This document shows, in pieces, positions 2,037-35,909 of a stretch of DNA of 53,869 nt; positions within the stretch are counted from its first letter, which is position 1; every line of letters starts with the position of its first letter. Source of the DNA: a virus; the IMG/VR virus record IMGVR_UViG_3300028410_000014, positions 1 through 53,869 of that record; one strand, 5' to 3'. The notes beneath the pieces were generated by a model that saw nothing but the letters and a program-made list of their open reading frames with translations, did not search any database and was not told the origin of the DNA. The position numbers were made by a program, and so were the translations under genes.

Positions 2037-3937
2037 AAGCGACTCATGCTGTAGTTGAACAGTTCATATTTTTCTCCCGGAAGTACAGGAGGCAGCTTCA
2101 CTTCAAAATTAAACATAGACAATTGCCCTCTGCGATACTGCCTTTTAATAATACCGGCAATAAATCGCGACTTATTGGGATTGTCTGACAGCAATCGCAG
2201 CGCGCTATCCACTACTACTTGCGCCTCTCCCGAGTTTTTGGTGCGAACTAAGTAAAGGTATTGCAGAGTGCTCAAAATTGGCCACTGTAACCCTGGACGA
2301 AACCAGTCAAAGCTGAACTCAAACTGCTTGTAGCGCATGATATAAAATTCAATGTCATTGGCATCCATATCTCTCTTGATCATATGCGCATTGTCGCGAA
2401 TTGTTTCCTCGTATGTTTTTGACAAATTGTAAAAATACGTAGCTCTTTTAACACCTATGAAGTTGTGCCCGTTCTCGTTCTTGATGTAATTAACGTCCAT
2501 CATTTCAGTTATGCTGTCTCCATGGTGTGTTGCCATCTTGACAATAGCAATCATCACAGGCTTTTCAAGAATACTCTGAACGGGTGTCAGGATAATATCT
2601 CTGCCGTTTGCTTCAAAACACTCAAGTTTGTCCCTGTAGCTATGCAGCACAAGGCTGTACACCAAGTTGACCTGAGCATCCGTCATTGAAGCTATTGCGA
2701 CATTGAAGCTGCTCATGCCCAGCCTGAAAATGATTTGCTGATAAGAATGCAACAGCTCTTCAGAAAGCTCTTCTGTAAAGTCTTTATTCACCTCCGGTAG
2801 TATGTCAAAATAGTTTATAGTGGGCAGTCTCACCAGACCTTTTAGAGCCAAATCTTGCATCGTGCTTTTAACGCTGGTCTTGGCAGCACTCAGATCAAAC
2901 CCGTAAGTCGCCTTCATAAACATTTTGAAGTCTTCCAGCAAGTCATGAGCCTGATTTTCTCTGCCTTTACAGAAAATATAAATGTCATCAATATATGACA
3001 CAATCTCATAATAGGGATGCCTGCCCATCTTCTCTTTGGAAGTGTTGATAAACTCAGTCAGCATTTGCCCCATCAGAATGTTGGCGAGGTAATGCTGGTA
3101 ATTACTCTCAATGGTGAGACCATTTTTAGCGTCTGCTGGATCCCCATCTTTATCAATGTATGTGAACTTCAGCAAATTTCCCAAGAAAATAGCTTCCTTG
3201 GACGATCCGAACAATTTTGAGAATATCTTGACAAGCTCCTCAATCTTGATATTGCTGAAGTACTTAACGAGATCCGTTGCCACCAAATGCGTGCTTTCTT
3301 TTCTCAGTTTTTTGCAGTGCTGTTCCATCAGATTGTATTCGTGAATGTAGGGGATAAAATCCCCTTTGGACGTTGTGCGCGGGCCGTATACGTGTACCTT
3401 TTCACTTACATTCTCGTTTAACCACTGGGCAATTGTGCGAGAGCGCCTGTGCAGCATAGAAGCAATCAACATCTCGTTGAGGGCCGGTTTCATAACAAAC
3501 TCGCGCACCTCTTCAGTGGCTTTGTCCGAGTTTTTCGGCACCGAGCGGCTCTTTCGAAAGGCCACCAGAGGCCCAACCTCCGCCAAAAATGTCTGGGCCT
3601 GACTCAGGGCATCCTGCAGCCGAGAAGCGTTGGAGAGGTGATACACACGTCCGTTAAGGGTGACCGATGCGCTGGTCAGCTTGTTTCTTGTGATGTCGCC
3701 GAAGGTCATCTTCAGCAAATTAGCCACGGCTTCTCTGTATTCTTCAATTACATACTCAATGCTGTAGCTGTTCTCCACGGCTTTGTTCACCAGGGCACAG
3801 AACTCCCTGCTGTTGAAGTGGATACGTTCAAATTCACTTAAGTGATCATACTGAATGCTGTGTTTCACATTGTGCTCCAGACTCTCACGGCCTTCGCGCA
3901 AAGAAAATGTTGTGAACAAGCTTGAATATCTAGACAT
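2033..3937 (-). CDS. Phage-encoded reverse transcriptase, long helical C-terminus
   Basis: A 634-aa protein with an RT palm. Motif A is VATDLVKYFSNI (Asp222); the motif B region is NGLTIESNYQHYLAN (about 272-286), where GL and LAN match the usual pattern; motif C is SYIDDIYIF (YIDD, Asp317-318). Fingers-like sequence lies at about 150-215. The last ~270 residues are helical and match no maturase, thumb or nuclease domain I recognise. It is not a diversity-generating RT: the expected SQ in motif B is missing and no template or variable repeats were seen. It is not a group II intron RT or a retron (no ncRNA recognised). The architecture is closest to abortive-infection and unknown-group RTs (AbiA/AbiK/DRT-like). 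Those act against phages, so here it may serve superinfection exclusion or replication. It overlaps genes on both sides. Confidence 0.85.
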   Translation of the reverse strand: MSRYSSLFTTFSLREGRESLEHNVKHSIQYDHLSEFERIHFNSREFCALVNKAVENSYSIEYVIEEYREAVANLLKMTFGDITRNKLTSASVTLNGRVYHLSNASRLQDALSQAQTFLAEVGPLVAFRKSRSVPKNSDKATEEVREFVMKPALNEMLIASMLHRRSRTIAQWLNENVSEKVHVYGPRTTSKGDFIPYIHEYNLMEQHCKKLRKESTHLVATDLVKYFSNIKIEELVKIFSKLFGSSKEAIFLGNLLKFTYIDKDGDPADAKNGLTIESNYQHYLANILMGQMLTEFINTSKEKMGRHPYYEIVSYIDDIYIFCKGRENQAHDLLEDFKMFMKATYGFDLSAAKTSVKSTMQDLALKGLVRLPTINYFDILPEVNKDFTEELSEELLHSYQQIIFRLGMSSFNVAIASMTDAQVNLVYSLVLHSYRDKLECFEANGRDIILTPVQSILEKPVMIAIVKMATHHGDSITEMMDVNYIKNENGHNFIGVKRATYFYNLSKTYEETIRDNAHMIKRDMDANDIEFYIMRYKQFEFSFDWFRPGLQWPILSTLQYLYLVRTKNSGEAQVVVDSALRLLSDNPNKSRFIAGIIKRQYRRGQLSMFNFEVKLPPVLPGEKYELFNYSMSRL

Positions 3938-4133
3938 TGATGAATCCTCTTAGGTAAAATTCCATAAGATCATGATCAAATTCCGCCTCAGTGTATTCGA
4001 GGCAGAATTTTGATCCGAACAACTTAAAAACTTCTTTACGACCGCCTTCAACAACTGCGACGCAATCCTTGTCAAAGATTACACCGTCAATTAAATGCAT
4101 GTGTGCTTGCCCGAATGTTACGTAAGTTTTCAT
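3930..4133 (-). CDS. Hypothetical protein, 67 aa
   Basis: Small protein beginning MKTYVTFGQAHMHLIDGVIF, with alternating beta-type residues then an acidic C-terminus. No family recognised. It overlaps the RT start by 8 nt and the stop of the 113-aa gene by 4 nt, so it is the gene immediately before the RT in the same translational string. Confidence 0.65.
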   Translation of the reverse strand: MKTYVTFGQAHMHLIDGVIFDKDCVAVVEGGRKEVFKLFGSKFCLEYTEAEFDHDLMEFYLRGFINV

Positions 4134-4471
4134 TCAGGGACTCTCCTGTAGTACAATGAAGGCACATCGCAAATACACTTACCGACATGCCGTTTGCATT
4201 CGAGGCAAACACCTTTGACATTATGACAAGGCGCACTGAACTCAACAGCACCGCAATTCATACACATCTGTTCCTCTCTATTACATACCAGATCAGCAGC
4301 TTCATCTTGATCTTCTGAATGAAAGTCATCACAAGTGTGCAGGACATGCTCATTAATAACTTCCCTGCGAAATCTGAATGTAACAGGCTGCTCATCAACA
4401 GCGGCCAGCACATCATGGAGGTGCTCTATTTGTTGAAGAGCCGAAGGAAATACATTTTGACGAATGCACAT
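4130..4471 (-). CDS. Zinc-finger-like hypothetical protein
   Basis: At least 113 aa. The C-terminal half has two Cys pairs, CMNCGAVEFSAPC and CLECKRHVGKCICD, typical of a zinc ribbon or knuckle. The frame stays open upstream of ATG 4471 to 4528 (ILTEEKRIKAIRQTQLVYS), just after the stop of the 38-aa gene. An AAGGAG lies suitably before an ATT codon at 4528. The true start may therefore be a rare ATT or CTG rather than ATG 4471, which lacks a clear ribosome site. Confidence 0.65.
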   Translation of the reverse strand: MCIRQNVFPSALQQIEHLHDVLAAVDEQPVTFRFRREVINEHVLHTCDDFHSEDQDEAADLVCNREEQMCMNCGAVEFSAPCHNVKGVCLECKRHVGKCICDVPSLYYRRVPE

Positions 4472-4531
4472 ACTGTAAACCAGTTGAGTTTGCCTTATTG
4501 CTTTTATTCGTTTTTCTTCAGTCAGAATGCG

Positions 4532-4648
4532 TCAAGTCTCCTTGTAGATGTTGCGGCAAAAATACACCGACTGAGTTGAAACGAAGCCTACTGCTTTTGA
4601 CACATTTTTCACTAACTCTACGATTTGGTTCTCTTGAATTTCAATCAT
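4532..4648 (-). CDS. Small hypothetical protein, 38 aa
   Basis: An ORF of 38 codons from ATG 4648 to TGA 4532 (MIEIQENQIVELVKNVSKAV at the start). It fills an otherwise empty 170-nt gap and its ATG overlaps the stop of the upstream gene as ATGA, as elsewhere in the arm. No function recognised. Confidence 0.5.
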   Translation of the reverse strand: MIEIQENQIVELVKNVSKAVGFVSTQSVYFCRNIYKET

Positions 4649-4932
4649 TGCGGATTATACCTTTTGTGATTAAGACGATGGATTAAGCAAAGCTTGATAA
4701 ACATTTCTCTGGCCTTTTTAAGAGAAGTCACAGACTTTAAATACAAAGTTTTGCCATCTAATCCTATGTGAATTATGTAACGGTTCACGTGATTCTCAAT
4801 GCCTAGAGAGCCTGTCATTGTCAGCCGCTTGTCTCCTCTTTCAGCAACTTCTTTCAATCCCTGAGAAAAGGCGGCTTCAGTAAGCCACCCCTCTACTGTG
4901 TATCGATACTCGTTATCCTTTCTGTTGCTCAA
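4645..4932 (-). CDS. Hypothetical protein, 95 aa, probable TTG start
   Basis: The frame is open from a GTG at 4989, but that would overlap the upstream gene by 77 nt. I prefer TTG at 4932 (LSNRKDNEYRYTVEG), which leaves a 20-nt overlap and has a GGAG 9 nt upstream. The protein is basic at its C-terminus (HRLNHKRYNPQ). No family recognised. Confidence 0.6.
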   Translation of the reverse strand: MSNRKDNEYRYTVEGWLTEAAFSQGLKEVAERGDKRLTMTGSLGIENHVNRYIIHIGLDGKTLYLKSVTSLKKAREMFIKLCLIHRLNHKRYNPQ

Positions 4933-5215
4933 TGTATTGCTCCACTGAAACGTCTGACATGTAGTCCTCACACAAGGACTGGCATTCACTGAGTGCTTTC
5001 TCTAAAGGAAGCTTTTCTGAAACTATTTTGATCAATTCAAGAGGGTCATCGTCGACATGATAATCACGCAAAGTGCAATAAAAAATTAAAGCGCCTCTAT
5101 TGTCAAACTCAAAGCTGATGCCAATATTATTGGTCTCAAAAAACTCACAATGCCCTTCGTACACGTGTTCAACTTGTCTGCCATTTGGTCTTACAAACTC
5201 TACTAATTTAAGCAT
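4913..5215 (-). CDS. Hypothetical protein, 100 aa
   Basis: Acidic 100-aa protein, beta-rich in the first 60 residues (HCEFFETNNIGISFEFDN) and helical afterwards. No domain recognised. An ORF end in another frame (stop at 5208) overlaps its start as ATGCTTAA, suggesting that an upstream product terminates here. Confidence 0.65.
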   Translation of the reverse strand: MLKLVEFVRPNGRQVEHVYEGHCEFFETNNIGISFEFDNRGALIFYCTLRDYHVDDDPLELIKIVSEKLPLEKALSECQSLCEDYMSDVSVEQYIEQQKG

Positions 5216-6914: not shown

Positions 6915-7003
6915 ATGCAGATTTAGACAAGTCTAGGCTCTACGGGCCTTCCCATTCATTGCGCCAAGCAAACATTACATCCGCTTGACGCGGTAATGGT
7001 TAT

Positions 7004-7564
7004 TTACTTAGCAGCTTCTTTCTCTGCCTTGACTTTTGCACGATGCAAGGCCAGACCTTCCATAGCCTGCGGTGAAACTTCACGCTTCACTTTACCGGCT
7101 TCAAAGGCGGCTTCGATAGTCTCAGCGTTCTGGGCAACCCAATCTGCGGCGTCCACATTGTCGGGTCCAAGCATGTCAACCAAGAGTTCTTTGATGGCGG
7201 CTTCTTTTTCGTCAGCGTCAAGACGCTTCTGACCGGGCCACTTGAAAGACTTTGCGACGTCTTCGTAGTGAGCAACGAGAAATGCGAATTTAGGCTCATC
7301 TTTATGCTGTTCAACGACAGCTTCCAGCGCCTTAGTCAGCTTATTACGCTCACTCTTGGTCACACGCTTAACGGTGCCTGTGCCGAAGATTTGTGCCAAT
7401 TCTTCTTTCTTTTCCAACAACCAGTCCGACATCTGCTCATTACCGGCAGTGGCTGTCATCAGAGCCGCACGAATTTTCGGTGCACGACCGTGATCAACTG
7501 CTTCCGCTTTGGTGTTGAAAAGAGTACCGTCTGCTGCTTGGAATACTGGCTTAACTTCGCTCAT
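7004..7564 (-). CDS. Abundant-type hypothetical protein, 186 aa
   Basis: A 186-aa helical protein, Lys/Glu/Ala-rich, with no recognised catalytic motif. It stands as a one-gene unit with a promoter-like motif upstream (7631-7650) and a strong terminator downstream, unlike its tightly packed neighbours. That layout suggests separate, high expression. The segment VFQAADGTLFNTKAEAVDH at the start resembles a short motif often found in small phage proteins, but I cannot assign a function. Confidence 0.75.
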   Translation of the reverse strand: MSEVKPVFQAADGTLFNTKAEAVDHGRAPKIRAALMTATAGNEQMSDWLLEKKEELAQIFGTGTVKRVTKSERNKLTKALEAVVEQHKDEPKFAFLVAHYEDVAKSFKWPGQKRLDADEKEAAIKELLVDMLGPDNVDAADWVAQNAETIEAAFEAGKVKREVSPQAMEGLALHRAKVKAEKEAAK

Positions 7565-7630
7565 TTTTAAATCCTTGATGATTATGATGGACTCGCATTA
7601 TTGCCAGCCCTATTTTTACTACGTCTTCTG

Positions 7631-7650
7631 GGTTAATTTAACGGGGTCGC
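7631..7650 (-). promoter_or_regulatory. Candidate phage promoter, ACCCCGTTAAATTAA type
   Basis: Reading the minus strand, GCGACCCCGTTAAATTAACC lies 67 nt before the 186-aa gene. The core CCCGTTARATTAA recurs only in two other gaps that I found, at 23078-23098 (before SSB) and 50281-50300 (before scaffold and capsid). All three are on the same strand and upstream of genes expected to be highly expressed. A T7-like promoter is a reasonable reading, but recognition by either phage polymerase is unproven. Confidence 0.45.
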
Positions 7651-7702
7651 AACCCATGTCCTGCATGGCTCCGTCACAACTTGTGGCACGACTTTGAAAA
7701 AC

Positions 7703-7945
7703 TCACTTATTTCTGTTAGCCTCTATTTCACCAACTCTTCCGCCGGATTTGCTCCGGAAGGCACCTTTAGCATTGCCTGTGGGCCAACCCGTTGCACCTA
7801 CGAAAGCAGACAGCCTCTCAGTCGCAACGGCGTGGGCGGCGTAACAGCGCACCTGTCGGGCTTTGAACTCCGCCAGAGATTCTTCGGGTTTGCATCTCAG
7901 GTCTACACACTTTTTACCCTCGATACAGGCTTTACACTCTATCAT
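7703..7945 (-). CDS. Small cysteine-rich protein, 80 aa
   Basis: Begins MIECKACIEGKKCVDLRCK, a four-cysteine N-terminus that may bind zinc, followed by a Gly/Arg/Lys-rich tail. No family recognised. It overlaps the upstream 128-aa zinc protein by 14 nt. The gap between it and the next gene (7565-7702) carries the promoter-like motif. Confidence 0.6.
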   Translation of the reverse strand: MIECKACIEGKKCVDLRCKPEESLAEFKARQVRCYAAHAVATERLSAFVGATGWPTGNAKGAFRSKSGGRVGEIEANRNK

Positions 7946-8318: not shown

Positions 8319-8623
8319 ATTTCCCCCTTAATCTCAAGTCTGTTACCGTTCACTCTTGCACGGCCTCTGAAGATGAAGACACTGGGGATGATAAAGTCCC
8401 CCACCCTAGGAAAAAGTTGGCAAGCAGCCTCGCACTCGCTTGTCATTTGCCATCTGGGATTGCCAAACGCATCAACAAAGATAACGCCTTCTACAAGACC
8501 TTTGACAGCTTCGCAGACTATTAACTTTACATAGCTCCTTTGAATGCCTGCCTGTTTTGCTGCGGCGGCAGGTGTGTTACCTCTCCCAATCACTCCTGCC
8601 TCTGTGACAACTAAGTATCGCAT
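8315..8623 (-). CDS. Hypothetical protein with HTH-like segment, 102 aa
   Basis: Residues about 15-38 (GNTPAAAAKQAGIQRSYVK) look like a short helix-turn-helix, and the C-terminal half is beta-rich. DNA binding is therefore possible but not demonstrated. Start ATG 8623 overlaps the stop region of the upstream 75-aa gene by 13 nt. Confidence 0.6.
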   Translation of the reverse strand: MRYLVVTEAGVIGRGNTPAAAAKQAGIQRSYVKLIVCEAVKGLVEGVIFVDAFGNPRWQMTSECEAACQLFPRVGDFIIPSVFIFRGRARVNGNRLEIKGEI

Positions 8624-8838
8624 GCGGTGTCCTTCAAGTGAAGTCGGTATTTGCGCTTGTAAAAAGCCGCCTCTCGCCTTGAGTGTCTCTTGACTTTCCT
8701 TTCGATAAGCGCGCTCCTTCTAGTGATTTCTGAATTCACCTCTTCCATGACTTCTTTAGAATACTTGAATTCAAGAAGCGAAACAACTTCAAGAAGGAGC
8801 GCATCTAGTTCATTTTTCCAAGTTGTCTCTGCTTTCAT
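8611..8838 (-). CDS. Small helical basic protein, 75 aa
   Basis: Start taken as ATG 8838 (MKAETTWKNELDALLLEVV); a TTG four codons earlier is possible. The N-terminal half is an amphipathic helix, the C-terminal half is very basic (RKVKRHSRREAAFYKRKYR), which suggests nucleic-acid binding. No family recognised. Confidence 0.6.
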   Translation of the reverse strand: MKAETTWKNELDALLLEVVSLLEFKYSKEVMEEVNSEITRRSALIERKVKRHSRREAAFYKRKYRLHLKDTACDT

Positions 8839-9055
8839 ACCAAGCCTCAATTTTGTTTACTATGTGATCAGGAGCATTCAATCTACGCATGTACCTGCGC
8901 ACCATTACTTTCACCTCTTGAGAATCTGGCTCAGCATCCCAGATAGAATCATATTTGCTTGTGCTGATCTTCAACGGCAGCGACGCCCAATCACCGACAA
9001 TCAAACGGATATGCGTTGAATCTACCTTCCTTATGAAGAACGGTGCGTCATTCAT
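8810..9055 (-). CDS. Hypothetical protein, 81 aa
   Basis: Small alpha/beta protein (MNDAPFFIRKVDSTHIRLIV at the start, helical end EAWYESRDNLEK). No family recognised; overlaps both neighbours. Confidence 0.6.
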   Translation of the reverse strand: MNDAPFFIRKVDSTHIRLIVGDWASLPLKISTSKYDSIWDAEPDSQEVKVMVRRYMRRLNAPDHIVNKIEAWYESRDNLEK

Positions 9056-9272
9056 TTAATTTAGCCTTAAAATCTTCGATGCATTTATTGTAGCTATGCT
9101 TATAGCCAAAGTCGTAAAGGCTTGCATGTTCATCACAAGGCCACAGCTTCTCTTGTAAGCAGTCAACTCTGACAAAGGGTTGATACATAAAGTGAAACAT
9201 AGGGTCAAGGTCTGTTACAATTTCGGCAGGCACAGCTAAGTTTTGCCAAAGTACTACTATGTTCTCTTCCAT
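9048..9272 (-). CDS. Hypothetical protein, 74 aa
   Basis: Begins MEENIVVLWQNLAVPAEIV and contains several aromatic residues. GGAGGAATT precedes the ATG. The segment YDFGYKHSYNKCIEDFKAKL is reminiscent of small phage proteins with a G-Y-x-x-x-Y-N pattern, but I assign no function. Confidence 0.65.
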   Translation of the reverse strand: MEENIVVLWQNLAVPAEIVTDLDPMFHFMYQPFVRVDCLQEKLWPCDEHASLYDFGYKHSYNKCIEDFKAKLNE

Positions 9273-9361
9273 AATTCCTCCGCTAACTTACTCATTTGAA
9301 TAGCCCAGTCTTCATTAAAATGCACAACTTCGCAGCTTGATTTTTCCAGAATACTTGTCAT
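9257..9361 (-). CDS. Small hypothetical protein, 34 aa
   Basis: ORF from ATG 9361 (ATGA overlap with the upstream stop at 9358) to TAG 9257, encoding MTSILEKSSCEVVHFNEDWA and a helical end. It overlaps the next start by 16 nt and supplies that gene's ribosome site. Too short for confident assignment; supported by position and overlap. Confidence 0.45.
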   Translation of the reverse strand: MTSILEKSSCEVVHFNEDWAIQMSKLAEELWKRT

Positions 9362-10185
9362 TTAGGTGGCACCTTAAACTTAGGTGGTGGATTGAACTTG
9401 GGAGGAGCTTTGCGGGTTTCATTGTTATGCGTCTCAGCATCCATTGCGTGAACAATGTTAGGTGCGCTTGCTCCGTAAGAATTGAGAGTGCCACCTCTTT
9501 TCATCCCGACATTGTCTTCCTTAACTGTGTTTGCAGCTATTATGATTTGAGGCGGCCCTTCATCTCTCCCTGTTTTCTTTTCCCTGTTTAATTGTGTGAT
9601 TGATTTCTCAGGTTTATGAGTCAGCCAACCAGGGGTGATGCTGTTGAATTCTACGTCTTTCAGTAGAGACAACTTATGATTTACGTGCGCCTGGTATGCT
9701 TTACAAGGGTCTTGGATGTGCCTAAACTCAGGCATAACAAAACGCATGGGAGCCGTGAAGTCCTCACAGCTGAGCTTGTCAGGCGCTGTCATCAAGACAT
9801 TCTGCAAGTTGTGGTACTCGTGTTTTTCGCCGTGCTGCCTCTCATAGAGGGTACACGCACGGATGAAGCACAGAACCAGCCAAGTGTAATTGGCGGTAGA
9901 CTCACACAGCCAATTCACACAAGGGTGTTCCAAGTTTACACCGGCAAGCAGTATGTAACCTGTTAGGCGAGGCTTCTTACCACTTTCATCCAGAGTGTCT
10001 GTGTGATGCACCCACCACTTGCGGTCATTGCCGTCGTGCTTAACCCACAGTGGGCCGAACCCGTCCAACTTTCGGTGTGCCGAGGACAGCAACATGGCGT
10101 AATGTGGGATTTTCTCCCTCAAATGCGCATTGCAAAGCTCCTCTGCGGAAGTACGCGGGTCTTTGTTTGTGTAAAAGATGTTCAT
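9358..10185 (-). CDS. Conserved phage protein, 275 aa, function unknown
   Basis: The N-terminus (MNIFYTNKDPRTSAEELCN, then HLREKIPHYAMLLSSAHR) matches a pattern I know from conserved phage proteins of unknown role that begin MNIFxxDxDPxxxAExLCDKH. Aromatic and His residues follow (KWWVHHT, HPCVNWLCES), a pattern suggesting an enzyme or base-binding fold. The C-terminal ~70 residues are Pro/Lys-rich and disordered (repeated PPKF). No reaction is assigned. It overlaps genes on both sides. Confidence 0.65.
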   Translation of the reverse strand: MNIFYTNKDPRTSAEELCNAHLREKIPHYAMLLSSAHRKLDGFGPLWVKHDGNDRKWWVHHTDTLDESGKKPRLTGYILLAGVNLEHPCVNWLCESTANYTWLVLCFIRACTLYERQHGEKHEYHNLQNVLMTAPDKLSCEDFTAPMRFVMPEFRHIQDPCKAYQAHVNHKLSLLKDVEFNSITPGWLTHKPEKSITQLNREKKTGRDEGPPQIIIAANTVKEDNVGMKRGGTLNSYGASAPNIVHAMDAETHNNETRKAPPKFNPPPKFKVPPK

Positions 10186-14901: not shown

Positions 14902-17541
14902 TCACAAGATGTCGACTGCGGCAATTTTAGTTCCTTTTTCTGTTTTGTTGAAGGATTCTTCACTTGCTTTTTCCTCAATAAAATCTACTGCAGTCATTCG
15001 GCCTGTTGACGGAATAAATCGAAGACCTGCAACTCTGCCTGTTAAGCCGATTGTCCTGGCTTTCAGCACTGCCATGTCTATCGTGTTTCTGTCTGTCTCT
15101 GACTCGGCTGTCATGTTTCTTGCAAAGGCCACTATGTCAAATGAGATTTGCTTTATGGAGCCTGAGTTATGGGTGATGGTATGGTTGCCTAAAAGAAAAC
15201 GTCCATTGCCGTTAAGCACAAAACCATAGTAGTCTTGTACATCCAGGGCTTCAACAGTGATGCCTCTCTTCAGCGCATTGGTCTGTCTATCAACTTTGTT
15301 AATTTTCTGCGTAGGAATTTTATCAATATCCCCAGAGATCATAACTTGAAATATCTCAGAACCATTTGAAGAATAATCACCTGAAATTATCTGAGACCTC
15401 ACAGTACTGTAAAGACCCAGAGATCTTGCAATGCTTTTCACTGTTTTTGCAAGCTCTTTATCTTTCTGGTAGAAATAGAAATGACTGTCACGTGTTGAAT
15501 AAGAGCCATCTGTATCAAGCAAGCCTGCAAGAAGCTCTAGTCGCTGTGCTCTGCTGGCATATTGATAAGCTGAAGGAATATGTTTATTTTTAAACAAGTC
15601 AAGGTTTTTCAGCTTGTTAAGCATTTCTCCTTTTGTTTCTGTTATGAAGTTGAAATATTCTTTGTTGACATTTTTTGGGCTCCCTAAGACTGCGCCGAGC
15701 TCATTAGCTACTCTTTCAACAATACCTATGCGAGCTGCGTCCATGATTCTGAAAGCTGATTTAGAACCATCGCCGAGCCAAGCGCCTAGAGAGTAAGGCG
15801 GGATAAGAAGCTCTTGATGGGGTAAATCATAACCTCCGCTGTAGTGCTGCTTACATCTGTATTGAAAGCTGTCACTTTTGTTTAAGAAATCTTTCACAGA
15901 AATATTAAATAATTTGTCATTATGCGACAATGTCAAGACATGGTCTTCATTACAAATGAAAGAATCATTTGAGGTTTTTGTCACCACTCTGTACATTTGC
16001 TGCGAGCCTCGCCTTAATTTTAAAATCTGCCTAGGCTGACCGTTGTCACCAATTAGGCAATCTCCGACTTTTAAATTTTGAACTGCTTCAGAAGTGCCGT
16101 TCGAAAGCAAGACTTTTGTGTCTCTAGCAAGGCATCCTTTTATATCATCCAGAGAAGGCAGTCTTCCTTCTTCGAATGACTTTTTGTCGTTAGGCGTTTT
16201 GCGTAGATGCGACACAAGACCGATCCATACGTCAGGATAGCGCTTCACAATACGCAGCAAGTCGTTCATTATTTTATCTTGTGCTTCATTACCTTGCAAG
16301 TTTTCTGCCCCTTCCGATACAAGTATCGTGATGTGGTCAATGAAAATTTTCTTGCAGCCAACCAAGCACATATATTCTATGCGATCGATTATACTGCCGT
16401 CATTTGCAGAGCCTTGATGATCTAATAGCTCTACTCTGTCGCCTTCAAAGACTTCATTAAAGCCGACTTCAAGATCTTCTAGAGAAATCTCTTCCAGGGC
16501 TTTATTACGCTTCAGCTGCATACTTGCAAGAGACTTACCGGTCTCACCGGGGGCTTCTTCCAAGCTTATTACGCCAATCTTCTCCTTAGATGTCGCCAGG
16601 ATATGCAAGATTATTTCTCGCATTATTGTACTTTTACCCGAACCTGTGCCGGAGATGAATAGCGTAATCTCTCCGCCGCGCATGCCTTTAAGCTTACTGT
16701 TGAGACCGGCAAGACAAGGCGGAAATGGAATTGAAACAACTTTACTTGCTGCTACAATTGCTTCCCATATAGCAGTTCGCTTTATGATCCCGGAGGGTAC
16801 AAACGTAGTTGCGTCAAAGATACATTGAAGTAGCTCTTTGCCACCCATTTCGACAAGCACGTTATTTGCATCATTTTTCGGGAGTTTTGTGACACGCGCT
16901 TTATCGTAACCAATGATTCTTATAGCTTCTTTTTGTGCCTTCAAGCCTGCGTCGTCTTCATCAAAACAAATCACAACTTCTTGAAAAGAGCGAATCCAAG
17001 AGCGATGCTCTACAAGGTGCTCTGCCATTGCGGAAGAAGAAATACCTACTATTGGGTAAAACTTATTGTATCTTTGATGGGATGCCTCGGCTACTGCAAG
17101 AGTATCGCATTCACCTTCGCATATAATTAAACGCTTGCCACCGCCGTTAAAGTGTTCCATACCGAATAGGGACTTGGAACCAGACGGTGTCCATTGAAAC
17201 TCTTTGGGGAGTTTGCGGATTTTATAATGTGTTTCTTTTTCATAGGGGTAGTAATGTGTGTCAATATTACCGTCTGAATTGTAAGAAACTTTCACATTGT
17301 AAAAAGCACAGACTGCTTTGGTAATAGCTCTTGCTTCAAAGCCTCTTGTTGCGTATGTCTTTATCTCTTCTGGATCTATCCTTTTAGGACTGTACATTCT
17401 GGGTGCTGGCTTGACTGCTTCATCAGATTTAAAACTTTTGTCACATGAGAAGCATTTTGAACCGCCGTCTTCATATATCTGACGTGCATCAGTTGAGTCA
17501 CAAGCCAAGCAGGGCTGATTTCGCTTGACGATTTTGCCCAT
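14902..17541 (-). CDS. Primase-helicase (T7 gp4-like) with in-frame intein
   Basis: The 879-aa precursor gives a 556-aa mature protein after removal of a 323-aa intein. In order: a Cys4 zinc ribbon (CLACDSTD, then CFSCDKSF) at the N-terminus; a TOPRIM primase core (LIICEGECDTLAVAEA and VVICFDEDDAGLKA); a DnaB/RecA-type helicase with Walker A GTGSGKST, motif H1a (VISLEEAPGET), Walker B (KKIFIDHITIL) and H3 (WIGLVSHLRK). The intein splits motif H4, between DIKG and SGSIKQISFD (compare T7 RGSGALRQLSD). The mature enzyme should unwind the fork and prime Okazaki fragments with the polymerase at 19905-21779. The C-terminus is short and acidic, ending AAVDIL. Confidence 0.95.
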   Translation of the reverse strand: MGKIVKRNQPCLACDSTDARQIYEDGGSKCFSCDKSFKSDEAVKPAPRMYSPKRIDPEEIKTYATRGFEARAITKAVCAFYNVKVSYNSDGNIDTHYYPYEKETHYKIRKLPKEFQWTPSGSKSLFGMEHFNGGGKRLIICEGECDTLAVAEASHQRYNKFYPIVGISSSAMAEHLVEHRSWIRSFQEVVICFDEDDAGLKAQKEAIRIIGYDKARVTKLPKNDANNVLVEMGGKELLQCIFDATTFVPSGIIKRTAIWEAIVAASKVVSIPFPPCLAGLNSKLKGMRGGEITLFISGTGSGKSTIMREIILHILATSKEKIGVISLEEAPGETGKSLASMQLKRNKALEEISLEDLEVGFNEVFEGDRVELLDHQGSANDGSIIDRIEYMCLVGCKKIFIDHITILVSEGAENLQGNEAQDKIMNDLLRIVKRYPDVWIGLVSHLRKTPNDKKSFEEGRLPSLDDIKGCLARDTKVLLSNGTSEAVQNLKVGDCLIGDNGQPRQILKLRRGSQQMYRVVTKTSNDSFICNEDHVLTLSHNDKLFNISVKDFLNKSDSFQYRCKQHYSGGYDLPHQELLIPPYSLGAWLGDGSKSAFRIMDAARIGIVERVANELGAVLGSPKNVNKEYFNFITETKGEMLNKLKNLDLFKNKHIPSAYQYASRAQRLELLAGLLDTDGSYSTRDSHFYFYQKDKELAKTVKSIARSLGLYSTVRSQIISGDYSSNGSEIFQVMISGDIDKIPTQKINKVDRQTNALKRGITVEALDVQDYYGFVLNGNGRFLLGNHTITHNSGSIKQISFDIVAFARNMTAESETDRNTIDMAVLKARTIGLTGRVAGLRFIPSTGRMTAVDFIEEKASEESFNKTEKGTKIAAVDIL
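15166..16134 (-). other. Intein with LAGLIDADG homing endonuclease
   Basis: A 323-codon in-frame insertion inside the helicase. The first residue is Cys (CLARDTKVLLSNG, splicing block A), block B is NEDHVLTLS, and the C-terminal block is GRFLLGNHTITHN followed by Ser as the +1 extein residue; the terminal Asn and penultimate His are intact. Two dodecapeptide motifs, LGAWLGDGS and LLAGLLDTDGSY, keep their acidic residues, so endonuclease activity is possible. It should self-splice to restore KG-SG in helicase motif H4, a conserved site typical of inteins. Confidence 0.95.
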
Positions 17542-17543
17542 TA

Positions 17544-17726
17544 CTACCTCATTGTGTTCGCAATAAAGCCTAATATTAAAGAAGATAGCATTAATTTAAT
17601 GTTGGATAGGTCGTTGTCTTCAGCAACCCCCAATGCTTCCATTCCCATCAAAATGCAGCTGGCAATTAAACCCACAGCGGCAATGAGTGTGAGGATTACA
17701 AATAAAAAACGTTTGAACTTAAGCAT
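17544..17726 (-). CDS. Small two-helix membrane protein, 60 aa
   Basis: Starts MLKFKRFLFVILTLIAAVGL, a positive N-terminus leading into a membrane helix; a second hydrophobic segment (MLSSLILGFIANTMR) ends the protein. Function unknown. It sits between the endonuclease-like gene and the helicase, overlapping the former by 8 nt. Confidence 0.65.
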   Translation of the reverse strand: MLKFKRFLFVILTLIAAVGLIASCILMGMEALGVAEDNDLSNIKLMLSSLILGFIANTMR

Positions 17727-18177
17727 CGGGGTCTCCCATGTTGATGATTATATTCAGTCTGCGTTTATGCCTTTCAGATAATTTTTCGCTGACATTCCAT
17801 GCAACTTTTTCAATGCGCTTGTTATACCAACGATCTGTTGTAGGCGCCTCCACTAGACACAAGGACCATGTCTCTGCGTAGCTCACAGTACCTGTCATCC
17901 TGTATTGCTCAAGACAAAAGAAATCAAAGTCTGATTTATCACCTGCTTCCAGCAAGCTATTCAATATGTTTGAAGAAGACGTGTACTTACGCCAGTTTGT
18001 CTCATAGCCACTGCTGACTCTGAAAGATTTTTTGCCTAAGTAAAATTTCTCCATTAAATTATCGCGGATTATGTAAACAAAGCCTGCTCCTTTTCCCATC
18101 TGTTGATCAAACTTCCAATGACCATTGTTGAACTTTGAGGCGGAGGGAACATAGTTGTTTGGCACTGACATTTTCAT
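17719..18177 (-). CDS. Putative GIY-YIG-type endonuclease
   Basis: A 152-aa protein. Residues about 32-50 read GFVYIIRDNLMEKFYLGKKS, matching the spacing of a GIY-YIG nuclease core with FVY and YLG in place of GIY and YIG. Arg and Glu candidates follow (NWRKYTSSS; YAETWSLCLVE). Its place, between the exonuclease and helicase genes, is that of the T7 gp3 resolvase, so a junction-resolving or recombination role is possible; that is inference. A free-standing homing nuclease is the alternative. Confidence 0.6.
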   Translation of the reverse strand: MKMSVPNNYVPSASKFNNGHWKFDQQMGKGAGFVYIIRDNLMEKFYLGKKSFRVSSGYETNWRKYTSSSNILNSLLEAGDKSDFDFFCLEQYRMTGTVSYAETWSLCLVEAPTTDRWYNKRIEKVAWNVSEKLSERHKRRLNIIINMGDPDA

Positions 18178-23101: not shown

Positions 23102-23485
23102 TTAAAAAACAGAAAGCGCATCTCGCACTGCCTGGGGGATATCTATATCATTTCTGAACAAGTAAACAACACCGAACTCATCGTTTACAAGGTGCAGGAT
23201 TTCCCATGCATTCTCGTACTCTTCTAAATACTCCCAATTTACAAAGGCTTCATCATGTGCAACCATTGTCAGATGCAATAAGAAACCTTTATCACTTGTT
23301 AGATAAGCTTCCTCCTTGCTAAAGTCTTCAGCTGTTTCTAAAACAACAATTATGCCGATCTCTGACATCTTGTTACCCTGCCCTACCCACTCTTCAATAC
23401 TTAGTTGATAGCTATTAAGAGCAATTCTGTTGATTATAGGGTCTTCAATTGCTTCAATGTCTTCGAGTGTTCTGCAGATTATCAT
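23102..23485 (-). CDS. Hypothetical protein, 127 aa
   Basis: Acidic alpha/beta protein (MIICRTLEDIEAIEDPIINR at the start). No family recognised. Its ATG overlaps the RNA polymerase stop by 4 nt, so it is translated with the polymerase. Confidence 0.65.
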   Translation of the reverse strand: MIICRTLEDIEAIEDPIINRIALNSYQLSIEEWVGQGNKMSEIGIIVVLETAEDFSKEEAYLTSDKGFLLHLTMVAHDEAFVNWEYLEEYENAWEILHLVNDEFGVVYLFRNDIDIPQAVRDALSVF

Positions 23486-25716
23486 GCAAATGCGTACTCC
23501 GAGTCAAGAACCAGTGTCAGGTCTAATTTGCCTTTCTCTATTTTTGTGATGTCCGCTCCTATGTCATTGAAAATTGATGTCAGTGGGTCTTTAAGGTACA
23601 GCTCAACAAAGGTCTCCCTGACAATCCTGAACAGATCATTCATGTCACCCAACAACGCCCCGTAGGAATCATGGACTGTTGTTACCGGGAATGGCGCTCT
23701 GCAGACTGTCAGTATGAGATGGCCCGCATCAAGGCTGTGAATTATGTTCGGTGCGGCACCTTGAGATTGCTTATTTTTAGAGGGCTTTGGCTGCTCCAGA
23801 TAAGAAATCATCAATTGGTACGTATTCTCGTAATACCCCGTGTTCAATCTCTTGCCTTTAGGCGCTCCGTATTGCACCCAAGTTTTCTTAACTTCTCCTT
23901 CAATGTAATGCTGTACTACAGGAAAGTTGGTTATTGGGACAGTCCAAGAGAGGAACTCACCGCGCTGTTCCGCTGCTTTGCCCGCTTGCTCAAATGTTGA
24001 GAGAAGACGCATCGGCTTTTTAAGACAATCCATACAAACTCTGAAAAGATCTCTTCCGAAATAAGCACCCCAAGTGTGTTCCATGTAAGTTAATAACTCA
24101 ATGCCGTGTTTGCGAGAGTCATTTATTACTTGCTCTCCCAGGCCATAAGGCTTAGAGCCGTACGGAAGAGTCATTACGCCTCTCTTGCATATCTTTCTTT
24201 TTTGCTTATCTTCGTTGACTCTCAACCAGAAGATCGGAGCAGCTCTTTTAATGATCTCCTTGTTTTTCAGCTTGTACTTCTTATAGATCTCAATAAGCTC
24301 TTGGCGTTGCTCGCTCTTAGCTTCTGTTGCATTGATCTGCTTCTTCATTTCGATGAGGGTATCAATGCATTTGTCCAGACTCTTCTTAGTCCTTGAAGTC
24401 ATTTCACTGACTTCTTTCTCAAGTTCAGCCCACATGTGGTATGCCACAAACATATAAAGGTCGCCCGGAAGATCTGAGGGCACTAAGTTTACATATGGTG
24501 CCGTCTCTTCATCCAGCATCAAAGCCGATAGATGTTGACTTCCGTTAGTGCTGCCGTCAAGATATGCTTCTAAGCCTGATTCATAAGAGAAGTCCTCGAC
24601 ATCACCCATTTGATGCTGTCTCAATTTCAACATCTCAAAGCATGCAGCAATAAACTGCCAGGGCTTATCTGCCTTCATCCATCCTTGGTTTAACTTAGGA
24701 TTTTCTGCGTACGCAACTATAATCTCTTCATTGTCAAGAACCCACATGTAGCGATCTTTCAGAGGTATCTTGTCTGTTTTTAACTCGTCTTCTCTCCCGG
24801 CGTCCCCGCCCCAGTTAGAAGCAATGCTGACACATAGCCAAAAGAAGCCGCTCTCTTTAATCGCTTTTCTGTCGTTTCGTATCAAAAGGCCTTTGGCCAG
24901 ATCGGAGCCTTGCTCGTTGAGATAGGCGGTTGCCACATACTTTCTTCCTCTGAAATCCATGTATTGTAAATGGTAGAAAGTGTCATCTAAGAATCGTTCA
25001 GCAATGCTGCTGATTGACTTTGTCTCCCTGATCTTTGTAGATCTTGCTTCAGGGCTGTGCGCCTTCCAGACATCATTAAATGCGTCTGCCTTGTTTCTGA
25101 AAGACCACAGCTGTAACTCGTGGACAGCTTTGTTGATGTTCCAACCAACTGATTGAGATTTATTAATAGCCTCATATATCAATGGATGTGTTAGCGGAGT
25201 TACTGTAGATCTGATTTTGTGGTTTGTTTTGATAAGCAATGCACCGGTTGAATGGCGAAAGCTTGTCCATGCGTCATAAGGTAGAAGTGATGGTAGCTTT
25301 TCTAAAGTAGCCGGTGGAAGTTCGTTCCATAATTTGATGAGAGCTGCATCGTCCACTACTTCTACAATATAGGCTTGGTGTCCATTTGAACCTTTGCTTT
25401 TCACTACTTTCAGCAAATTAAGTTCCTCAAAAGAGTAAAGAATAAATGCGCCTGTTTTAGCAGCCAACGCTGAATCTTTTTTGAGTTGCTCTTTGGACAT
25501 AAGCTTTTTACCAATAGCACACACAATTTCTGTAAGGAACGTGAATTGTGCTCCTGACTTTACTCCCTTTTTAGGTCTAGTGTAAAGATACACGACGCCT
25601 ATGATATCGTTGATGTGTTTTTCAAGGGACAACGCCTTCAAGTATTTTAGAGGCATTCTGATTGAAATTTCAGAACCAACTCGGGTTTCAAGACTATTCA
25701 AAATTTTGTTGCGCAT
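23482..25716 (-). CDS. Single-subunit DNA-directed RNA polymerase, T7-like
   Basis: A 744-aa polymerase of the T7/mitochondrial superfamily. All signature motifs are visible: DxxGR as MDFRGRKY (Asp254); motif A LDGSTNGSQHLSAL (catalytic Asp387); motif B RKICKRGVMTLPYG, giving R507, K511 and Y519 in the RxxxKxxxMxxxYG pattern; motif C TTVHDSYG (catalytic Asp683). It is shorter than T7 RNAP (883 aa), mainly at the N-terminus, where T7 has its promoter-binding region, so specificity may be different. It should transcribe phage genes from dedicated promoters. It follows a strong terminator and a small membrane-protein gene, which implies that it is read mainly from its own start. Confidence 0.97.
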   Translation of the reverse strand: MRNKILNSLETRVGSEISIRMPLKYLKALSLEKHINDIIGVVYLYTRPKKGVKSGAQFTFLTEIVCAIGKKLMSKEQLKKDSALAAKTGAFILYSFEELNLLKVVKSKGSNGHQAYIVEVVDDAALIKLWNELPPATLEKLPSLLPYDAWTSFRHSTGALLIKTNHKIRSTVTPLTHPLIYEAINKSQSVGWNINKAVHELQLWSFRNKADAFNDVWKAHSPEARSTKIRETKSISSIAERFLDDTFYHLQYMDFRGRKYVATAYLNEQGSDLAKGLLIRNDRKAIKESGFFWLCVSIASNWGGDAGREDELKTDKIPLKDRYMWVLDNEEIIVAYAENPKLNQGWMKADKPWQFIAACFEMLKLRQHQMGDVEDFSYESGLEAYLDGSTNGSQHLSALMLDEETAPYVNLVPSDLPGDLYMFVAYHMWAELEKEVSEMTSRTKKSLDKCIDTLIEMKKQINATEAKSEQRQELIEIYKKYKLKNKEIIKRAAPIFWLRVNEDKQKRKICKRGVMTLPYGSKPYGLGEQVINDSRKHGIELLTYMEHTWGAYFGRDLFRVCMDCLKKPMRLLSTFEQAGKAAEQRGEFLSWTVPITNFPVVQHYIEGEVKKTWVQYGAPKGKRLNTGYYENTYQLMISYLEQPKPSKNKQSQGAAPNIIHSLDAGHLILTVCRAPFPVTTVHDSYGALLGDMNDLFRIVRETFVELYLKDPLTSIFNDIGADITKIEKGKLDLTLVLDSEYAFA

Positions 25717-30321: not shown

Positions 30322-30700
30322 TAGTTATCTCCTTAATTAGATATGGGGTTGAGGAAATACTTAACCAATACTTGCCCGGCAAGTCTACTGAGAGCTCAAT
30401 ATCACCCCCGTCCGAAATCTCTGTTACACCGTCAAACCAATTAATGACGGAGCCAGCAGGTACATTTGAGATAACTGCCGTATCTTGTAAATCCGCGACA
30501 AGTTCAATATGGTTGGGTAAGAAAGGGAAACTAGACTTATGTGTTAACACTCCATCGCTAACCCAGCTATCGTCAGCACCCACATTTGCTTGAGAAGTCA
30601 GTCTAAATTCACCTTCCTTTACTTGCATCAAAACCATTGAGTCTGGGCAAGTGACTACCCTGATGATAGCACCATTTGCATTATAAATAACGTGGTTCAT
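30299..30700 (-). CDS. Tail-tip accessory protein, 133 aa
   Basis: Starts at ATG 30700 (MNHVIYNANGAIIRVVTCPD) with a TAATG overlap with the large tail protein. Beta-rich. Its N-terminus resembles those of small tail-fibre assembly or tip proteins that read MxxVIYNxxGxIxRVVxCP. No catalytic motif is present. Together with the 129-aa gene it forms the end of the tail module. Confidence 0.6.
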   Translation of the reverse strand: MNHVIYNANGAIIRVVTCPDSMVLMQVKEGEFRLTSQANVGADDSWVSDGVLTHKSSFPFLPNHIELVADLQDTAVISNVPAGSVINWFDGVTEISDGGDIELSVDLPGKYWLSISSTPYLIKEITIEAIAAT

Positions 30701-33700
30701 TAACGCTGTACTCCCAAGATTAGTAATGAAGCTCCCATTACAGACCACCCACTGTTATTGTTAAAAGGTTGAGAGCAACCTACGTTAAGATAGAAAGTTC
30801 TGTTACCTGAGCCCATTAAGCCTTGAAAAGAAAATACGTGTTGGGTTGTCCACCGCCCACCTCTTGTACTTGACTCTCCTAAACCAACTAGACCATTATT
30901 TTCGTCTCTGATTTCAAACAAAACATTAGTATCATTGTTAGGAGCATTAGCTGAAATTGTGATAGTAAAAACTGTAGACACACTGCCGGGGAAAAATGCC
31001 GAAACACTTGTAATTTGATTACGAAAAGTATTTGGAGCAATAATAGTATCATTACGGGGAGCCGTTCCAAATACAGGAATGGTAACTGCGTTTCCTTGTA
31101 TCTGAAGCGTATCCACATACGCATCTCCGGTGAATATTTTGTTGCCGTCGATGAAAGTTGTGCTTGGCCTAACCCAAGTATCTGTCCTATTCTTTGCCGC
31201 CTGCCCTGCAAGCGCTGCATTACGGATAGTGGATGCGGAGGAGCCAGACACATTTGCAGTATCGTAAGCAGTGTTGCTGCCGGTGTTGTCTGCATTAGTG
31301 GGAGGTTTGCTGCCTGTAACTTCACTGTAAAAAAGACTATCTTTAAATGCAAATCCGCCAAGGCCTGATACGCTGTTTTGACCTCTGAACGTGGCGGAGC
31401 CATTCTTATCTAATTTCCATCCAGCTGCTCCGGGTATCTCCCAGCTGTTACTTTGGATAGTGTTGCCAATTTTTGCATTTGTTATTTCACCGTTTCCGAC
31501 AAATAAATTGACAAAGTCACCGTTTGCGACAAACAACTTTTCGGCATCCAGGTTAGTGATCTTTGCGTTATCAATTGTAGCATCAACAATGTAGGCACCT
31601 GACATAGTCGTCATGCCTTCTGACACACCAAATACTAAGCTTTGAGATGCACTCGGATGGTATATGGCAAAATTGTCTGCCATTACTTCAAACAAAGAAG
31701 GCGAGCCTTCCTTGTTTATTAAGCCAACTCCGGAGACTCTACCGTTGACGTCTGTACGAATTGACCAAGAGGCTTCAATGCCATTTATAGACTGAGTCTG
31801 AGTTTGTATTGCGGCAGTTTGTTTGCCTATTTCTGTGGAAAGATCAGTAAAGTCTATAGCCGCTGCTGTTGCACTGCCCTGCGCGTCCTCTGCAAAAGTT
31901 GAGGCTTGCCCAGCATAGGTTTGCGCATTTCCGCTTGCGCCTTCTGCAAGAGTTGACGCTGTTTCAGCTGCTGACGCATAGGTACCTGCGCTAGTTGCGG
32001 CTGTGACTGCAGTAGAGGCAGAGCCGGATGCAGCTGTTGCACTATTGCCCGCGTTATCTGAGCTGGTTGCTGCAACACCAGCACTAATTTGTGCCCTTTC
32101 TGCTGCGCCGTCCGCGAGTGTGTAAGATTCAGAAGACTCATTCCTGTATATCAGTGATTGATTTTTAGAGTCTAATGCTGCAGCGGCGCTCTCAGCTGCA
32201 TTCATTGTGCTCCCATACGTTGCTTCAAGCCCTGCAAATTGGTCTAGTAGTCCCGTATCAGGCGCATCTATCTTATCAATTCGTTCTGAAAGTCTTAAAT
32301 CAAGGTGCTGATCTTTAATTTTGTCTTCAAGCTCTTCAAGTATAATTGCGGCTGACTGATCAGTCACGGCTACAACCGGGCCGGCGTAAGCTGCGGAGAC
32401 ACCTCCACCCACAGACACTTCTTTTGCCCAATACACCCACCTTGTGTTCGGGCTAATTGAGTGTGCATAGATTCGTGTGGCGAGCACTTTTGCAATAAGA
32501 GTTGCGTCAATAATTGTGGGCTCAGTCTCACCATCCAGCCAAGGCGCGGCAAATATAAGTGTGGCGCTATGTCCGCCTGCTTCAGAATAAATGGGTATGT
32601 CCCAAGTTAATATTATTGACTCAATTATAGGACGCGCTGCCAGATTCAGCGGAGGTGGTGGCTCAAAAGTAATGTCGTTAATTGTGGCATAGTAATCGTA
32701 GTCTACGGACACGCTTTCAGAGAAATCACCAAACACGCCCGAGTAACTGACGAAGCGCACCCAGTAGAAAAGCATACCAAACTCTGTTGGCACCTCCGCA
32801 AATTTCTCACGATCAATAGTTGTGACCAGTCTTGCCGCGTCTTCAAACACGTCAGTCCTGCCGCGATATATTTCGGTAGCATAATGGTTGTTATACTTGG
32901 TGGAGTCCCAGGGTCGCAGCTCAGGGATACTCCAACTGACTGTCACCAATTGCTTTCGATCACCGCTTATTGCAACACTCACGTTTTCAGGAGTCGGAGG
33001 CTCTGCGGGGTCAAGCGAAATAAGGCTTGTAGTGATCATTTCAGAGACAGCGCCGGACTTAGAAACAGACTGTATTCCGAAGATAACTTCAGGATGTACA
33101 AGAGCGGTTAAGCTGAAAGGTGGGTCCAGGATGGCACCGATTCTCTTGAAAAGTAGCTCACCGAAATCATTCAATTCACCGGGGACATGGATAAATATCC
33201 AGTTTTCAAGCAAAAGAGTGCTGCCGGAGTTCAGCCAGACAAGTGATCCAACTGAGTCTTTTGTGTCATAGAGATTCGGCACATATTGCAGGAAAGAAGG
33301 TGCGGAAAACTCTTGGCTGAACACAGGGGATGGTGAAAGATATTGATCATCCTCAACGTTCCAAGCCAGCTGAGTCCAGTCAAAACGAGTGCCGGATAAA
33401 GAACAAGTGCCGTTCTCGGCGGGTTTAACCTTGTCAATCTTAATGTACAATGGACCGTCAATGCTTAGACTTTCAGAGCTCAGCTCAACAATGTCACCTG
33501 GCTCATAGTAGCGATCTGTCAGAATGATTTCAAATTCAAACTCAGACGCGGACCGGCTTGTCCTTACCATTTCTTCGGCTTTAGCCAACGCATGGTACTG
33601 AGAAGTAGCGCCGTCTAGAAACGTTTCAGTCTCCAGCGCAATGCCGTTGTCTTCTGCCCGCATCTCCTCGTAAACTGCGATGTCGTTGGAGTAGTCCCGT

Positions 33701-35349: not shown

Positions 35350-35909
35350 TATCTTTTCCCCCATAAAAGTGTCAGAGAACGAGAACCCTCATAGACTTGA
35401 TCAAAGGCACTGTCACTGGGGTCTATGTTCCGAAGAGTCTCGCGCGAGCTGTAGAAGCCATCTGTGGCGTCAAGCGCGGCGAGCACGTTCGATCCTGTTA
35501 TCTTTGTTATTGTTTCCCCCTCGATATCAGTCTCAAAGTTTACGTCTTTACCTTGGACAATCCCGGAGTATAGCGTGAACATATCACTGACGAGCGGCTC
35601 TTCAGTTGAAGGATCGACAAAGCCCAGCTGCACAGTTAACTTGGAGCCTATTAAGCCTTGAGTGTACTGGTCACCGAGCGCGTTGCCAGGATCAGACAAT
35701 ACAACCTCGTATAAAGAACGATCTACTGAAGAAGTAGCTTCTGGAGGAGTGACCCCGACCAGTATTTCAGAAGACAAGTAAGTGCCCTCAGAAGTCACAA
35801 GATCACGACTGTAGTCTGTCATGAATAGGTCTTTTATGCGTACACAATAGAATCTCTCTGCCTCATTGTCTGCAAGCAATTGCACTTGAATAGCCGAGAG
35901 GTTTATCAT
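35349..35909 (-). CDS. Tail tip / hub assembly protein, 186 aa
   Basis: Beta-rich 186-aa protein (MINLSAIQVQLLADNEAERF at the start; FTLYSGIVQGKDVNFETDIE in the middle). Size, position before gpJ and strand pattern match the small tail-hub proteins of siphoviruses (DUF2163-like or HK97 gp-like). It probably links the distal tail protein to the tip. Confidence 0.65.
   Translation of the reverse strand: MINLSAIQVQLLADNEAERFYCVRIKDLFMTDYSRDLVTSEGTYLSSEILVGVTPPEATSSVDRSLYEVVLSDPGNALGDQYTQGLIGSKLTVQLGFVDPSTEEPLVSDMFTLYSGIVQGKDVNFETDIEGETITKITGSNVLAALDATDGFYSSRETLRNIDPSDSAFDQVYEGSRSLTLLWGKR

Follow-up and report, generated by a model that had tools for sequence, protein, structure and literature searches.

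The closest described systems for an intein in a replicative hexameric helicase come from bacterial DnaB. In Mycobacterium smegmatis both the P-loop and the H4 motif of DnaB have been invaded (DnaBi1 and DnaBi2), and two inteins in one protein occur; DnaBi1 is a class 3 mini-intein and the H4 intein belongs to class 1 and bears an endonuclease (PMC6195587). Mycobacteriophage inteins likewise occupy phage nucleic-acid enzymes, often at active sites such as the P-loop, and are described as having active endonucleases and putative lateral transfer; the hosts are mainly terminases and others, and no gp4-type helicase with an H4 intein appears in the portion of that source available here (PMC5050341). 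Vibrio phage RYC, a large phage (BAV80986.1), carries a related intein, 32 % identical to the one described below, in a phage gene annotated as a putative helicase (...TSVGK/C...HN/T), but that intein is at the P-loop GK/T of a distant helicase and not at H4. PI-SceI, the yeast VMA1 intein, is the closest solved structure over the full length and has the same Hint/LAGLIDADG arrangement, yet it has 454 residues rather than 323, is 24–26 % identical in structural alignments and interrupts another host gene.

The DNA analysed here, referred to as the window, is a stretch of 53,869 nt of viral origin. Its intein lies in a phage gp4-type primase-helicase and not in a DnaB, between the KG and SG of the H4 region, two residues before the usual position of DnaB H4 inteins. 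The features of the locus are as follows.

14902–17541, minus strand: primase-helicase precursor gene, T7 gp4-like (Zn finger, Toprim, RecA-like helicase), 879 aa
16135–17541, minus strand: N-extein, residues 1–469, ending ...SLDDIKG
15166–16134, minus strand: intein, 323 aa (residues 470–792), of class 1 by sequence; a LAGLIDADG endonuclease is nested in a Hint splicing domain
16132–16134, minus strand: codon of Cys1, the splice-junction nucleophile
15940–15942, minus strand: codon of block B His65 (CNEDH)
15766–15789, minus strand: LAGLIDADG motif 1, LGAWLGDG, with D122 aligned to PI-SceI residue 218
15583–15585, minus strand: codon of Lys184, aligned to PI-SceI residue 301
15505–15534, minus strand: LAGLIDADG motif 2, LLAGLLDTDG, with D209 aligned to PI-SceI residue 326
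15166–15171, minus strand: codons of block G His322-Asn323
14902–15165, minus strand: C-extein, residues 793–879 plus stop, starting S(+1)GSIKQ

The host gene is a single continuous frame with no internal stop and has the features of T7 gp4: the Zn-finger Cys residues, Toprim, the P-loop and H4. The ORF matches PHROG 239, DNA primase/helicase (E 3.5e-126), and Pfam Toprim_2 (E 8.5e-9), while C11, C14, C30 and C33 of the Zn finger as well as G302 and K303 are invariant in an 18-row alignment. Taken together, residues 1–469 and 793–879 match the T7 gp4 primase-helicase (PDB 6n7i, E 1e-52). In that alignment the insertion point falls between Gly488 and Ser489 of T7 gp4, the region that the earlier note had called H4, and residues 470–792 have no T7 gp4 counterpart. 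Masses computed from the sequence are 97.9 kDa for the precursor, 36.3 kDa for the intein and 61.7 kDa for the spliced helicase, in agreement with the value of about 62 kDa given previously.

The boundaries of the intein, which had been placed at 15166–16134 with 323 residues from the letters alone, proved exact to the base. The junctions read ...SLDDIKG/CLARDTK...HTITHN/SGSIKQ..., and the termini that this earlier reading had noticed, a Cys start and a terminal HN before Ser, are present as C1, H322-N323 and S+1, the pattern of class 1. Across an alignment of 22 inteins, C1, N62, His65, K184, D207, H322 and N323 are invariant. The block B Thr of TxxH is replaced by Asn in the window intein (NEDH), with Asn62 and His65 occurring in 22/22 rows; PI-SceI likewise has Asn in place of this Thr. 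Both predicted LAGLIDADG motifs with their acidic residues were found (LGAWLGDG with D122, LAGLLDTDG with D209), and these two residues are at least 90 % conserved in the same alignment. Asp218, Asp326 and residue 301, the PI-SceI residues with which D122, D209 and K184 align, are catalytic.

Three Pfam families match the insert, all above their curated cut-offs: Hom_end_hint at the insert start (E 3.2e-19), LAGLIDADG_3 (E 1.7e-7) and Hom_end (E 2.4e-4). NCBIfam gave no useful match to the intein. An AlphaFold (AF2) model built from the 22-intein alignment reached a mean pLDDT of 91.7; Foldseek matched it to PI-SceI (E 6.9e-25), also the top match by VIA-align, with Z 31.4 and an rmsd of 3.0 Å over 320 residues, the full length. 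The insert is thus predicted to have the Hint fold. A model of the whole precursor (18-row alignment) was poor, with pLDDT 66.8 and pTM 0.41, and is uninformative on splicing geometry. An intein profile search of the 53,869 nt window found no intein besides that at 15166–16134.

Among 50,697 phage records no single place covered 80 % of the intein-bearing query, and megablast of window positions 1–25000 against phages gave no match. The closest intein relatives in phage records, among the 60 of 668 records listed, are at most 39 % identical and lie in other genes, mostly annotated helicases. Plasmids yielded six records at up to 33.3 % identity, none closer. A scan of bacterial genome contigs found inteins that match along their full length at 37 % identity or less; the best of these (L125–L129, 34–37 %), and also L133, have P-loop type flanks such as ARPGMGK/C...HN/T, which we take to be DnaB-like, and none of the bacterial relatives whose flanks were examined is at an H4 site like that of the window. 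A literature search by title and abstract, covering open-licence papers and therefore not proof of absence, found no intein at H4 of a gp4/T7-type helicase. As an element the intein is unremarkable and belongs to a well-understood class of genetic parasites.

Homologues without an intein at KG-SG, the comparison proposed in the earlier note, do exist. Two viral contigs of a sister phage, L004 and L005, which differ from each other at three positions in the coding sequence, encode a helicase that is 97.3 % identical to the window exteins and has no insert. DNA alignment with them gives an exact empty site, with the insertion between KG and S. The empty H4 site of L004 (7408–7416) reads KG-SAS instead of KG-SGS, and Ala at +2 occurs only in L004 and L005 among the loci examined; SAS is possibly a homing-resistant allele.

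Fifty related helicase loci were surveyed, 43 from a search with six peptide patterns and seven that carry a related intein plus the same helicase. The seven stem from a search for intein relatives that returned 80 loci, 17 of them with a detectable helicase extein (nine on contigs already in the pattern-search set, the seven added and L119, which was left out of the tally as distant, at 25 % extein identity); the remaining 63 are in other genes or too far from the helicase to tell. Of the 50 loci, 10 have an intein at H4 and 40 are empty there. At the P-loop site (SGTG/SGK) 12 loci have an intein, 37 are empty and one, L043, is cut off. Both sites are occupied in four loci (L013, L014, L015 in part, and L048) and neither in 32, L043 included. 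The status of L021, L022, L043, L049, L054 and L076 was assigned from motif lines and extein continuity. These counts should not be read as frequencies: the same phage probably recurs among the loci (L001–L003 with L006; L013–L015; L037–L039 with L042), and the selection favoured inteins, since two of the six peptide patterns derive from the intein and the seven added loci were picked for carrying one.

The window intein and that of L001, a more distant phage, are 92 % identical, whereas the N-exteins of the two are 74 % and the C-exteins 57 % identical. Synonymous divergence between them has reached saturation in both exteins, against 0.281 in the intein, and the tree path from window to L001 is 0.081 for the intein versus 0.66 for the extein. 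With so little divergence in the intein between such diverged exteins, the intein appears to have moved between the lineages after their split, and its history is decoupled from that of the host gene. In the endonuclease part, split off by the analyst's choice of region, the single pair window–L001 shows 24 synonymous and 10 nonsynonymous changes over 145 codons (dN/dS 0.099), a ratio that shows purifying selection on the endonuclease.

The sequence next to the insertion carries a probable trace of such an arrival, in two parts.

16135–16179, minus strand: –45 to –1, the upstream section of the probable co-conversion tract
15157–15165, minus strand: +1 to +9, the downstream section of the probable co-conversion tract

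Over the exteins as a whole the mean identity of the window is 94 % to L004 and 68 % to L001. From –45 to –1 the window equals L001 at 41/45 positions and L004 at 36/45, while directly upstream the figures are 87/120 and 114/120. From +1 to +9 they are 8/9 and 5/9, and directly downstream 73/121 and 118/121. Identity over the 54 bp flanking the insertion is therefore 49/54 to L001 and 41/54 to L004. Window and L004 differ at 100 extein sites, 13 of them within –45 to +9. L001 has the window's base at 10 of these 13 and at 30 of the other 87 (Fisher p 0.0047, with bounds picked post hoc). Additionally, when the exteins are cut into 1606 overlapping segments of 54 columns, L001 is closer than L004 in 46, and 44 of those segments make up a single block at the junction. 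Co-conversion of extein residues at intein invasion is described for haloarchaeal MCM inteins (PMC10643990), and the footprint from –45 to +9 probably represents donor flanks co-converted in this way.

This tract could also be no arrival trace at all, if L004 drifted near the site, perhaps under selection for a homing-resistant allele (SAS versus SGS). The Ala at +2, confined to L004 and L005, fits such a history, and so does the intein-free L009, which agrees with the window at 8/13 tract sites (33/87 outside). Since L009 agrees to this extent and there are only 13 sites, part of the tract signal may be due to chance or to another donor. Against drift of L004, the state of L007 at the 13 sites is shared by L004 at eight (28/87 outside) and by the window at two (33/87 outside), so it is mostly the window that changed and not L004. 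Drift of L004 is rated unlikely, though as an explanation of the tract it keeps some weight.

From evidence that is sequence-based (the exact insertion, the empty site, the intact motifs, the unlinked intein and extein histories and the purifying selection) together with a predicted fold, we infer splicing, cleavage, homing and the direction of transfer as follows. The phage would make one 98 kDa precursor, from which the Hint domain would excise itself by attack of Cys1, transfer to Ser+1 and cyclization of Asn323 aided by His322. This would join KG to SG and restore an uninterrupted H4 loop in the gp4-like helicase of 61.7 kDa. The freed LAGLIDADG endonuclease of 36.3 kDa would cleave the corresponding site of helicase genes that lack an intein in co-infecting related phages, and repair of the break would copy the intein with a short flank into the cut gene. 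Very probably the insert is a PI-SceI-type intein of class 1 that is mobile in this way: it would splice, home in co-infections and have reached the window phage from a relative resembling L001 once the L004 lineage had split off.

Patchy distribution alone could also result from repeated loss, and an intein that splices without homing might have been inherited vertically from the ancestor of the window and L001, with precise loss in L004, L007 and L009. The extein tree is compatible with this in that the empty L007 and L009 group with the window, L004 and L001 in one 100/100 clade. Several precise deletions would be required, though; co-inheritance is a poor fit to an intein dS of 0.28 beside saturated extein dS; and the strong purifying selection on endonuclease codons speaks against an element without homing, which leaves strict vertical descent very improbable. 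Still less credence, close to none, is given to an accessory domain of the helicase fold that is not removable. Its in-frame, uninterrupted coding would suit such a domain, but the whole length takes the predicted PI-SceI fold, the history of the insert is unlike that of the helicase, and empty homologues exist. The earlier note had named homologous insertions belonging to the helicase fold as one finding that would count against an intein; the homologue at 97 % identity is instead empty.

Because the insertion interrupts the DNA-contacting motif H4, the precursor is probably inactive, and the unspliced helicase would likely be without function. The earlier note went further and made the timing of replication dependent on splicing. 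For such a conditional switch, which would time helicase activity and hence phage replication, the P-loop intein of M. smegmatis DnaB offers a precedent, its splicing being documented as conditional (PMC6195587). No regulatory feature and no sign of slow or conditional splicing was found in the sequence, and with 40 of the 50 loci empty at H4 phages manage without an intein. Moreover, the class 1, endonuclease-bearing H4 intein of M. smegmatis DnaB is described in the same study as splicing fast and being unresponsive (PMC6195587). The claim on timing is therefore not upheld, and a switch of this kind is considered highly unlikely.

A tree of 14 inteins of these helicases separates them by site, with the six from H4 in one clade and the eight from the P-loop in a second (both 100/100); each of the two sites therefore has an intein lineage of its own. 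The P-loop inteins of this helicase family start with Cys and have LAGLIDADG sequences, unlike DnaBi1. Two double-intein loci illustrate the full state: L013 has inteins at 6958–7935 and 8443–9420, its P-loop intein being about 36 % identical to the window intein, and L048 has them at 2504–3490 and 4001–4969, with about 32 % identity for the P-loop intein. The P-loop intein of L037 (6044–6997) and L042 retains Cys1, the block B His and HN/S, and its LAGLIDADG motifs read LGTLLGAS and LAGLIDTNG. With these acidic residues lost, the endonuclease has apparently decayed, a state expected late in a homing cycle. It is possible, and is put forward tentatively, that the gp4-type helicase family is an arena with two intein sites and all four states (empty, H4 alone, P-loop alone and both occupied) that arose independently of the same sites in DnaB, with homing from phage to phage at co-infection and with L004 and L005 resistant to homing.

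Other elements of the phage genome had been cited together with the intein as homing-type elements, namely four introns and a GIY-YIG gene. The introns are real: four group I introns occur within 2.1 kb at 50861–52990 on the minus strand (Rfam RF00028, 68–80 bits), seemingly in one gene. An ORF on their 5′ side (52902–53849) has a weak match to an RNA polymerase family (phrog_414, E 3.2e-8, residues 256–308), and a tblastn search of the intron region with the RNA polymerase of the window gave no significant hit. Rfam found no match at the gathering threshold on L004 (13.7 kb). The GIY-YIG ORF, also real, is SegE-like (17719–18177, Pfam SegE_GIY-YIG) and lies directly upstream of the helicase. 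As a sporadic second homing element it was rejected: in 36/36 pattern-search loci that reach it (the other seven of 43 start within the helicase gene or beside it) it adjoins the helicase, at 42–98 % identity and with or without inteins. Being a stable neighbour regardless of the intein, it gives no sign of recent homing and is possibly not mobile but a resident gene. Elsewhere in the window are a 2866 aa tape measure protein (36501–45101; TMP_3, E 3.5e-45), a J-like tail fibre (30700–35364) and a single-subunit RNA polymerase (23482–25716). The window probably derives from a long-tailed phage despite this polymerase and the gp4-like helicase.

The phage gp4-type helicase family repeats the P-loop/H4 intein pattern of bacterial DnaB. 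Here the intein can be seen alongside its empty site and what is probably a trace of its arrival, and the donor-like L001, the window phage as a probable recent recipient and the near-identical empty sister L004 provide a natural test set for homing, to which further relatives add the P-loop site and a decayed endonuclease. With the P-loop and H4 invaded in two lineages of replicative helicase, the case agrees with the idea that inteins become established at sites which their host has little freedom to alter.
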